From a virus, in the IMG/VR virus record IMGVR_UViG_3300020439_000018, positions 1-42,129 of that record: DNA of 42,129 bases; one strand, 5' to 3'. This document shows positions 26,280-33,353 of this stretch, in pieces. The position numbers were made by a program, and so were the translations under genes. Each line of letters opens with the position of its first letter. The stretch's first letter is position 1. The notes under the pieces were generated by a model, which saw nothing but the letters and a program-made list of their open reading frames with translations, was not told the origin of the DNA and searched no databases.

Positions 26280-27118
26280 AACGGGTCATCCCCGTTCGGC
26301 GCATGATCACGCGGGTCGAATGGTTTTTCAACCCCTGCGGCACCGTTCTCAAGGAACGCTTCATATTTGCCGTCACGCAGCCAACGGAAGCAATCGGGAA
26401 ACGAAGTTGCAAATGCCCCTGGGGTGCGTTCTGCGCGTGACTGTTCGTTGACAGCAGCCCTTAGAGCGTCCTGCAAGGCGCTGTGAGGCGCTTGACGCAG
26501 TGCGATGGCGTATTCCTTCGCAGCTTTCGGTTTGGACTGCCCTGAAGCCTTTTTGTCGATGGCTTGGTACTGCTTCCAAAAGGCGTTGAACTCGTCGGTG
26601 TAGGTCGTGCGCTTGCGGGCTGTTTTTGGAACTTGTTCCGTTTGTGCCTGCCGTTGGATTCGATCTGTCTCGCCTGTGTCACATGTGTCGTTTGGCGGGA
26701 ATCCAACAGTTGTTTTATTTGGGTTCTTATTAACTGGGTTTTTATTCGTGGGTACCTTTTGGGCCCCGGGTACCTGAGTACCTTTTGGTACCTGGGTACC
26801 TTTTAGGCCCCACCCCATTTGGTCCCCGGGTCGCTGCATCAACACCGTGTAAACACTGGTTCGACCTGGGCGCGGTGTCTTCACCACCCAGCCCTGCTGA
26901 ATCAACCAACGCAGCGCGGTTTGCACGTCTTTGACCTTGATGCCGGTTCGGTTCGCGATCGTTGCCCGCGATGCCCAGCAACCCTCGTCACTGCCCCACC
27001 CGAAGCGGTGCAGCCACAGGTAGACGCAGATGACCTGTTTGCCACCACGCATGGTCATCAGGTCCATCAGCTCGTAAGGGACCGATGCGAAGCGTGCTGT
27101 GCGAAATGCTTTTGTCAT
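26276..27118 (-). CDS. Replication initiator candidate (lambda O-like layout)
   Basis: The 280-residue protein has an N-terminal winged helix-turn-helix (about residues 10-95; CWASRATIANRTGIKVKDVQ, then ALRWLIQQGWV). A linker of tandem repeats follows: KGTQVP at 106-111 and 112-117, then NKNPVNKNPNK. A basic C-terminal domain (about 165-260, 'EFNAFWKQYQ') completes it. Phage initiators such as lambda O bind repeats located inside their own gene, and here the linker DNA forms exactly such repeats. It is the first of a leftward operon with ATGA coupling to the next gene. I see no primase or helicase in the window, so the host replisome is probably recruited. Confidence 0.7.
   Translation of the reverse strand: MTKAFRTARFASVPYELMDLMTMRGGKQVICVYLWLHRFGWGSDEGCWASRATIANRTGIKVKDVQTALRWLIQQGWVVKTPRPGRTSVYTVLMQRPGDQMGWGLKGTQVPKGTQVPGAQKVPTNKNPVNKNPNKTTVGFPPNDTCDTGETDRIQRQAQTEQVPKTARKRTTYTDEFNAFWKQYQAIDKKASGQSKPKAAKEYAIALRQAPHSALQDALRAAVNEQSRAERTPGAFATSFPDCFRWLRDGKYEAFLENGAAGVEKPFDPRDHAPNGDDPF
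26704..26804. repeat. Iteron-like repeats and A/T-rich stretch: candidate origin
   Basis: Two adjacent 18-bp direct repeats lie at 26769-26786 and 26787-26804 and differ at one base (GGTACCTGAGTACCTTTT versus GGTACCTGGGTACCTTTT). A partial copy, GGTACCTTTT, lies at 26751-26760. Five (A/G)GTACC cores occur at spacings of 18, 8, 10 and 8 bp. Directly beside them, 26704-26750 is about two-thirds A/T and holds a 15-bp imperfect repeat (26721-26735, 26736-26750). The layout of 18-bp iterons beside an A/T-rich region inside an initiator gene matches lambda ori in form. Confidence 0.6.
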
Positions 27119-27945: not shown

Positions 27946-28402
27946 GAAAAATGAAGCGGATGATAATAAGCGTGAATTTGAGCCAATTCACATTGCAATC
28001 AATGGAATTGACCCAGCTCCGCAAGGCTCAAAACGCCATGTCGGTGGCGGCAGGTTAATCGAGGTTTCTAAGCGATGCAAGCCATGGCGCATGGCGATTG
28101 TTGGCGCGTGTCCATCTGTTTCGCGTCCGATGGATGTGCCTGTAGCGGTGTCGATTGTGTTTCGTTTCGCTCGACCTAAGACTCATTTGACGACTAACGG
28201 TCAACCGCGTGCAAATGCACCGAAGCAGTACACGGTGAAAAGGAATGACATCGACAAGTGTTGCCGCTCGACCCTGGACGCGCTGGTGGATGGTGGGGTG
28301 CTGCAGGATGACTGCTTTGTCGTTGTGTTGAATGCGAGCAAGCGGTATTGCCTGCCGTATGAACCAGCGGGCGCGATCATCACGGTGATCCCTCAATACT
28401 GA
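27944..28402 (+). CDS. rusA: RusA-type Holliday junction resolvase
   Basis: The 152-residue protein has 'PAPQGSKRH' near the N-terminus and FRFARPKTH. It then has the RusA core 'NDIDKCCRSTLDALVDGG' and a Asp-Asp pair in LQDDCFVVVL; the metal-binding Asp residues of RusA are in these blocks. It cuts four-way DNA junctions, probably before packaging or during recombination. The ATG at 27944 is the only start that keeps the full N-terminal strand. Confidence 0.88.
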   Translation: MKNEADDNKREFEPIHIAINGIDPAPQGSKRHVGGGRLIEVSKRCKPWRMAIVGACPSVSRPMDVPVAVSIVFRFARPKTHLTTNGQPRANAPKQYTVKRNDIDKCCRSTLDALVDGGVLQDDCFVVVLNASKRYCLPYEPAGAIITVIPQY

Positions 28403-28427
28403 TCAGGGTGCATCAGGGTGCTATGAT
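28401..28427 (+). promoter_or_regulatory. Tandem 10-bp repeats plus -10-like element (site 1)
   Basis: GATCAGGGTG (28401-28410) and CATCAGGGTG (28411-28420) are adjacent copies, one helical turn apart. They are followed after one C by TATGAT (28422-28427), a good -10 hexamer. No recognisable -35 exists. A second site of the same design lies at 28670-28707. The promoter probably drives the small gene at 28476. Confidence 0.6.
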
Positions 28428-28646: not shown

Positions 28647-28669
28647 GTGCCAATCAAGCCCCTGTCACA

Positions 28670-28707
28670 CGTCAGGGTAGACATCAGGGCACATCAGGGT
28701 GCATACT
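28670..28707 (+). promoter_or_regulatory. Triple 10-bp repeats plus -10-like element (site 2)
   Basis: CGTCAGGGTA (28670-28679), CATCAGGGCA (28682-28691) and CATCAGGGTG (28692-28701) are followed at once by CATACT (28702-28707), a weak -10-like hexamer. Site 1 has the same arrangement. The gene at 28733 starts 26 bases later. Binding sites for an activator, repressor or alternative sigma factor are plausible. Confidence 0.58.
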
Positions 28708-29774: not shown

Positions 29775-29968
29775 TGGTTGCGGACTAGGGCCGACTCACG
29801 CATCCGCACCCCTCGCACCCTGTCCGCTGAGGGTGACTTGTCCTTCGCCCGTTTCAGGGTGAAGAGACCAAAGCATAACAGCAAAAAACGGCAATGTCTT
29901 GCACTGACGAAAAAACCGGTTTAAGCTGCGCTGACCCCTGTGGCACCCTGATGTTTTCTTGATTAACC
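29775..29968 (+). promoter_or_regulatory. Intergenic region with repeat copies and a small hairpin
   Basis: This 194-base gap has CACCCT (29816-29821) facing AGGGTG (29830-29835) over an 8-base loop. TTTCAGGGTG lies at 29852-29861, and GGCACCCTGATG at 29942-29953 is an inverted copy of the CATCAGGGTG motif seen at 28.4 and 28.7 kb. It probably carries the promoter and operators for the recombination genes that start at 29969. No clear -35/-10 pair is visible. Confidence 0.5.
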
Positions 29969-32423: not shown

Positions 32424-33353
32424 GTGACTGATTCATTCAAGTTTTACCTAGACAGCATTGGTAAATATCCACTGCTTACTGCTGACCAAGAAATTGAGCT
32501 GTCAAGGCGGATTATTGCTTGGCAAGAAATTGAAGAGCAACGCCAAGAAATAACTGACCCGCCACCCTTGACGGCGAAAGAAAAACGCGCAATCAGATCC
32601 GGTGAACGCGCAAAGAAACAGCTGATCAACAGCAACCTGCGACTGGTTGTAAGCCTTGCGCGAAAGTATGCAAACCGCATTCAAGGTACGGGTCTTGAAC
32701 TTGCCGACCTGTGCCAAGAGGGCTGCATCGGTCTTGCACGCGCTACAGAAAAGTTCGATGGCGCTCGTGGTTACAAGTTTTCGACCTATGCCTATTGGTG
32801 GATCCGACAGAGCATTACACGGTCGATTGATCATCACAGCCGGATGATTCGCATCCCAACTAACACGATTGAAAACATCAACCGGTTAGCGGCATGGAAC
32901 AATCAATTTCAGCAGCTGCACGGCAGGGCACCATCACTGCAAGAAATGGCAGATCACGTTGAACGCAAGCCTGAAGAGCTGATGATGTGGTTTGAACGTT
33001 CATCACCGCATCGCAGTCTTGATGCGCTTTGCCATGAAGACGGATCGCCGTTAATGGATCAAATTGCTGACTCATCAAAAGAATCTGACGTTGTTAGCCA
33101 CGTCATTAAGACAGAAGAACACGAAAGGCTCAGCCGCGCAATCAACAAGCTGACAGCCCGTGAATACGACGTGCTTACGCGCTATTACTCAGGGACAAAA
33201 GGGATGCCATTGGCGCACATCGGCGCAGAGCTTGGAATCTGCCGTGAACGCACCAGGCAGATTAAAAACCGTGCGTTGAGAAAACTACGACTGATTGCCG
33301 CGCAAGATTACATGCCACCACGGTCGTCGGACGGGCTCAACCGCTTTGAGTAA
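32424..33353 (+). CDS. Sigma-70 family RNA polymerase sigma factor, cyanobacterial type
   Basis: The 309-residue protein holds region 1.2 (FKFYLDSIGKYPLLTADQEI, 5-24), region 2 (65-140, with GYKFSTYAYWWIRQSI for -10 contact and melting), region 3 (about 145-220) and region 4 with its helix-turn-helix (about 263-289, LAHIGAELGICRERTRQIKN). It lacks region 1.1, like group 2 cyanobacterial sigma factors. A charged insert lies at about 35-63. It could direct host polymerase to phage middle or late promoters. GTG at 32424 is chosen because region 1.2 begins immediately. Confidence 0.93.
   Translation: MTDSFKFYLDSIGKYPLLTADQEIELSRRIIAWQEIEEQRQEITDPPPLTAKEKRAIRSGERAKKQLINSNLRLVVSLARKYANRIQGTGLELADLCQEGCIGLARATEKFDGARGYKFSTYAYWWIRQSITRSIDHHSRMIRIPTNTIENINRLAAWNNQFQQLHGRAPSLQEMADHVERKPEELMMWFERSSPHRSLDALCHEDGSPLMDQIADSSKESDVVSHVIKTEEHERLSRAINKLTAREYDVLTRYYSGTKGMPLAHIGAELGICRERTRQIKNRALRKLRLIAAQDYMPPRSSDGLNRFE

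Follow-up and report, generated by a model that had tools for sequence, protein, structure and literature searches.

Does the initiator gene of a phage carry the phage's own replication origin within its coding sequence? The question was raised by a group of repeats in the IMG/VR virus record IMGVR_UViG_3300020439_000018, whose 42,129 bases, analyzed as a whole, are referred to below as the window. A sequence-only reading had proposed that these repeats, lying in the linker of a winged-helix protein beside an A/T-rich stretch, form an origin of the phage lambda type. No relevant open-access paper on iterons or replication origins of cyanophages was found. The features of the locus are listed in Table 1.

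Table 1. Features of the initiator locus (positions in the window)
Feature	Position	Strand	Basis
O-like replication initiator gene, 280 aa	26276–27118	-	Pfam HTH_36 and PHROG profiles
N-terminal winged-helix domain, residues 1–95, proposed iteron-binding domain	26834–27118	-	AlphaFold
Disordered linker, residues about 99–169, encoding the putative origin DNA	26612–26824	-	pLDDT 31–41
Helical C-terminal domain, residues about 172–256, proposed helicase/loader contact	26351–26603	-	AlphaFold helices
Iteron array, (A/G)GTACC cores, dyad GGTACC-N2-GGTACC	26751–26804		Repeat searches
Iteron-like degenerate copies on the side away from the A/T tract	26805–26838		Repeat family D1
A/T-rich tract, proposed unwinding element	26704–26750		Base composition
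Exchanged cassette (N-domain, iterons, and A/T tract)	26661–27113	-	Alignment to L004 and L005

Phage affiliation and gene content

The terminase encoded in the window was 64%–68% identical to those of the cyanophages KBS-S-2A, S-H1, MED4-117, and MED4-184, and by this sequence similarity the phage is grouped with the cyanosiphoviruses, as a relative of known viruses of marine cyanobacteria. Protein profile matches revealed genes for Erf, exonuclease VIII, and RusA. Polymerase and replicative helicase genes were not recognized among the window proteins scanned, and neither was a P-like helicase loader, with small unknown ORFs remaining. Among the terminase relatives, Synechococcus phage S-H1 has a gene annotated as DNA polymerase III beta subunit near the terminase, and no O-like gene was detectable within the 17 kb examined, which suggests a different replication module in that phage.

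A sigma-factor-like gene was found at positions 32424–33353 (PHROG 351, 2e-75), and the phage may therefore redirect the host RNA polymerase. The 10-bp unit ATCAGGGTGC forms tandem pairs at 28402–28421 and 28683–28702 and has an inverted copy at 29936–29952; these units, located in the early region beside the divergent gene switch, are possible operator sites for a phage regulator. A 39-bp stretch at 28662–28700 is kept in relatives, although the DNA immediately around it could not be aligned; it matches two sites in the related contig L002, at 95% and 85%.

The initiator gene and its product

The gene harboring the repeats matched the Pfam family HTH_36 (6e-9), PHROG 270 "replication initiation protein" (4e-20), and the O-like PHROGs 678 (4e-10), 391 (4e-9), and 345 (1e-6); the same three O-like profiles are matched by lambda O. 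Its relatives also matched HTH_36, some with additional weak hits to DnaD_N or HTH_Crp_2. A search reported 142 relatives. The Pfam family Phage_rep_O (PF04492), found in lambda O at 6e-36, gave no match above the cut-off for the window initiator or its relatives. Direct homology to lambda O was rejected, since BLASTP revealed no meaningful pairwise similarity. For these two reasons, the locus is assigned as a candidate intragenic origin of the lambda type, carried by an HTH_36 initiator outside the lambda O family.

The AlphaFold model of the protein, of modest quality (mean pLDDT 59), comprises a winged-helix N-terminal domain, a disordered linker, and a helical C-terminal domain. The N-domain is modeled as four helices and a two-stranded wing, with pLDDT mostly 60–87 for residues 11–95. 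Its neighbors in PDB were winged-helix DNA-binding proteins of a generic kind, none of them at E <= 0.001, and no relatives of the N-domain were found in the genome contigs searched. The repeats fall exactly in the modeled linker, as the sequence-only reading had proposed.

Repeat array and A/T-rich tract

All coordinates previously given for the array were confirmed: two 18-bp repeats (26769–26786 and 26787–26804) identical at 17 of 18 positions, a partial third copy, GGTACCTTTT, at 26751–26760, and five RGTACC cores starting at 26751, 26769, 26777, 26787, and 26795, with spacings of 18, 8, 10, and 8 bp. On the sense strand of the gene, the linker DNA contains CCTAAAAGGTACCCAGGTACCAAAAGGTACTCAGGTACCCGGGGCCCAAAAGGTACCC, followed by ACGAATAAAAACCCAGTTAATAAGAACCCAAATAAAACAACTG. 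Degenerate CCCGGGG/GGGGCC copies, overlooked in the sequence-only reading, extend the array at 26761–26768 and across the distal stretch listed in Table 1. Contig L002 has 24 additional nucleotides comprising one extra full copy, CGTACCCGGGGCCCAAA, which makes the protein longer by 8 amino acids.

By two measures, no other repeat cluster in the 42-kb record is as strong as the array. Tandem Repeats Finder ranked the array first. Across 2,799 segments of 150 nt, the number of repeated 8-mers reached 15 in the array and 9 in the best segment elsewhere, while repeats with spacings that are not multiples of three reached 10 and 4, respectively. Synonymous randomization with the peptide kept fixed gave means of 2.4 and 0.07 against the observed 15 and 10 (p = 0.0016 for repeated 8-mers and 0.0002 for spacings that are not multiples of three). 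The 18-bp period itself, previously regarded as a likeness to lambda, was rejected as a lambda hallmark, since the iteron periods of relatives are 24 bp or about 40 bp and those of lambda are 20, 24, and 23 bp. Dyad symmetry was likewise rejected as a family-wide feature, being enriched only in some classes (L004, L005, L009, L015, and L071) and lacking significance in most.

The adjoining 47-bp stretch had been described as about 68% A/T with a 15-bp repeat of its own, and both properties were recovered. The A/T content of 68% is reached by 0.46% of the 47-bp segments in the record, and the tract carries TTCTTATT (26724) and TTTTTATT (26739), two copies of AATAARAACCC located 15 bp apart. This tract also includes the 40 nt of highest A/T content in the gene (72% A/T, with 24 A to 5 T on the sense strand). 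Among 74 homologues, 72 have the 40-nt stretch richest in A/T in the linker region (codons 105–170); judged by eye, the homologue tracts lie just past the repeats. The mean A/(A+T) ratio of these tracts on the sense strand was 0.78; the corresponding tract of lambda contains 25 A and 7 T.

GC skew near 26.75 kb, suggested earlier as a check, gave no independent support: the small local rise at 24–27 kb is confounded by gene direction, and this measure was rejected as uninformative.

Selection on the linker as DNA

A repeated peptide can yield DNA repeats only at spacings that are multiples of three. The cores of the window occupy two codon phases, with CCYAAAAGGTACC translated both as LKGT and as QKVP. 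All three frames are in use in contig L009, where (A)AGGTACC is read as KRY, GT, and VP (also as KRYLGT), and in L004 and L005 the motif GTGTMA-N3-TGACAC is read as GVNLTP and GCQSDT. Repeats in the linker block (codons 92–146) exceeded those in codon-shuffled versions of the same block in 26 of 26 homologues, and cross-frame repeats did so in 24 of 26; these homologues share kinship and do not represent 26 independent trials, the effect recurring across all iteron classes sampled. Four control blocks of the same genes showed an excess over shuffles in only 1–3 of 26. Lambda O, used as a positive control, behaved similarly: its ori block contains 18 cross-frame repeats against 0.4 expected, and the four iterons are read in phases 0, 2, 2, and 1.

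Across 20 pairs of homologues, synonymous differences per site came to 0.094 for the linker, against 0.278 for the N-domain and 0.308 for the C-domain. Values for the linker were lower in 18 of the 20 pairs (paired Wilcoxon p = 1e-5, an indicative value, since the pairs were hand-picked and have common ancestry). The pair of the window and L002 is one of the two exceptions, with 0.122 in the linker and 0.104 in the N-domain. At the amino acid level, almost every one of the 20 pairs showed no less variation in the linker than in the N-domain. Cross-frame reading of the motifs, repeats beyond those of synonymous shuffles, and low synonymous divergence together indicate, at the level of sequence comparison, that the linker is under selection as DNA.

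Cassette exchange among relatives

Outside the interval from 27113 to 26661, contigs L004 and L005 align to the window at about 94% identity on either flank; inside it, no DNA could be aligned. The upstream boundary of the swap is only 5 bp from the start codon. Contig L003 has the same replaced domain as L004 and L005, together with the C-domain of the window. The replaced cassette of these three contigs comprises another N-domain, repeats of the type GTGTMA-N3-TGACAC, and another A/T tract; the N-domain of L004 is MED4-184-like (58% identity to that of MED4-184). The opposite case is represented by KBS-S-2A, which retains the N-domain type and has a different C-domain. A short inverted repeat was noticed by eye past the A/T tract, near the downstream swap boundary; it reads CCAACAG-N6-CTGTTGG in L003 and CAAC-N-GTTG in the window (26704–26712).

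As these alignments indicate, the exchanged unit is the N-domain together with the iterons and the A/T tract. Such joint exchange is expected if the N-domain must match its own iterons, as in the lambda-type system; Furth and Yates (1978, cited in PMC6022878) reportedly worked on lambda-phi80/82 hybrids. We consider, with moderate confidence, that siphoviruses of picocyanobacteria and their relatives possess origin cassettes of roughly 450 bp that form a large interchangeable family and are joined to exchangeable C-domains, the specificity domain, its own iterons, and the unwinding tract moving as one block between phages. Inspection by eye distinguishes about a dozen naturally occurring domain/iteron pairs, and, if such a family exists, they could serve as a data set for a recognition code.

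Alternative explanations

The occurrence of KGTQVP twice in the window, as well as the PPPKGG repeats in KBS-S-2A, would fit selection for a repeated linker peptide with the DNA repeats as its by-product. This explanation is already contradicted, since one DNA motif yields unrelated peptides in different frames, synonymous sites are conserved while linker amino acids vary, and the linker is predicted to be disordered; we regard it as the least probable of all. The sequence-only reading had assumed the reverse, that the KGTQVP repeats are a by-product of DNA constraint, and cross-frame reading and synonymous conservation speak for this. Homologues keeping the peptide repeat while losing the DNA repeat had been named as the contrary outcome; the opposite was found: translation of one motif in other frames alters the peptide, and the DNA repeats persist. 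Neutral tandem duplication by slippage within a permissive linker could produce the difference in copy number between the window and L002 (+24 nt), but the repeats were kept in 26 of 26 homologues tested, and the approximately threefold reduction in synonymous divergence of the linker already contradicts it, which makes such an origin of the repeats very improbable. Equally improbable is that the mRNA contains a structured RNA element or that the stretch is a different cis element: in some relatives, folding is stronger than in shuffled sequences (z of -3.7 for L004 and -3.0 for L071), as would also be expected of dyad-rich DNA, but the values for the window (-1.3) and KBS-S-2A (-1.5) are unremarkable, and the predicted folds vary by class, the shared feature being direct repeats with an A/T tract. 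RNA structure was rejected as inconsistent among relatives.

The repeats could also be bound by the initiator or by a repressor of the phage for autoregulation or copy control, with replication starting elsewhere. Domains of the winged-helix type frequently act as regulators, the nearest folds in PDB are of the MarR, ArsR, and AspA types, and DNA-level selection alone does not distinguish an origin from an operator. On the other hand, the array is located about 310–370 bp inside the gene, not at a promoter, and a search near it gave no promoter-like site. An operator also needs no A/T-rich tract, whereas a conserved one is linked to the repeats in 72 of 74 homologues, and the profiles name the protein a replication initiator. 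We therefore consider a regulatory role unlikely, albeit less so than the other alternatives.

Proposed origin function

With a probability of about 0.88, the feature is the lambda-type replication origin of the phage, located inside its own initiator gene. This reading is suggested by the replication-initiator profiles and the position of the repeats exactly in the linker of the modeled winged-helix/linker/helical protein, by repeats beyond what the peptide needs, synonymous conservation, the linked A/T tract, and cassette exchange, and by the similar behavior of lambda O in the same repeat test. The central claim of the sequence-only reading is thus well supported by sequence evidence, from which we infer the activity.

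In lambda, O dimers bind the iterons, stress the adjoining A/T-rich region, and display the DNA for P and DnaB (PMC6022878, PMC7466680). In the window phage, dimers of the winged-helix N-domain would bind the GGTACC iterons, and the resulting complex would strain and then open the adjoining A-rich tract. The C-domain, for which contact with the helicase or a loader is proposed, would bring the host helicase on its flexible linker tether, directly or via a putative loader, and replication would start. Direct contact with the host helicase may occur, since no P-like gene was recognized.

Comparison with known systems

Parallels were found among other cyanophages. The hypothetical protein CPKG_00028 of cyanophage KBS-S-2A has an N-domain 64% identical to that of the window initiator, as well as a linker with repeats (CCCAAAAGGTGGYA, 24-bp period) and the tract AATAAAAACCCAGT, but differs in the C-terminal domain and the iteron. 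The replication initiation protein of Prochlorococcus phage MED4-184 / P-HS2 shares the architecture, a related C-domain, linker repeats, and the A/T tract AACTAAAACAA, while its N-domain class and iteron are different. In cyanophage MED4-117 (L101, 4095–4863), the initiator is annotated as two genes, with one extra base after the linker compared to MED4-184, a difference that reflects either a genuine interruption of the gene or an error in sequencing. The IMG/VR contigs L003, L004, and L005 share the phage backbone and C-domain with the window but not the N-domain, iterons, and A/T tract.

A testable candidate replication origin is now located in a cyanobacterial phage group. The cassettes are candidate plasmid origins for cyanobacteria, and their natural swaps provide matched initiator/iteron pairs for studying DNA choice by winged-helix domains. 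Origins of this kind are already known; of greater interest are the exchange of cassettes and the range of iteron types.

In lambda (NC_001416), as in the window, the iterons of ori lie within gene O in the linker of a two-domain initiator, are read in several codon phases, and are followed in gene sense by an A-rich tract; DNA is bound by the N-domain, as predicted for the window protein. Extra iterons also lengthen the protein in both systems: one extra copy adds 8 amino acids in L002, and two extra iterons make the protein of Stx phages 13 amino acids longer (PMC7466680). The latter paper also describes an assay of P27 plasmids in which the repeats were disrupted and the protein left intact. 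The lambda iterons are unrelated in sequence to those of the window and differ in spacing from its 8/10/18 bp, and the window initiator matches HTH_36 rather than Phage_rep_O, lacks pairwise similarity to lambda O, and is accompanied by no recognized P gene. The lambda solution, an origin placed in a disordered linker, thus appears to recur in a different initiator family, with iterons of unrelated sequence.
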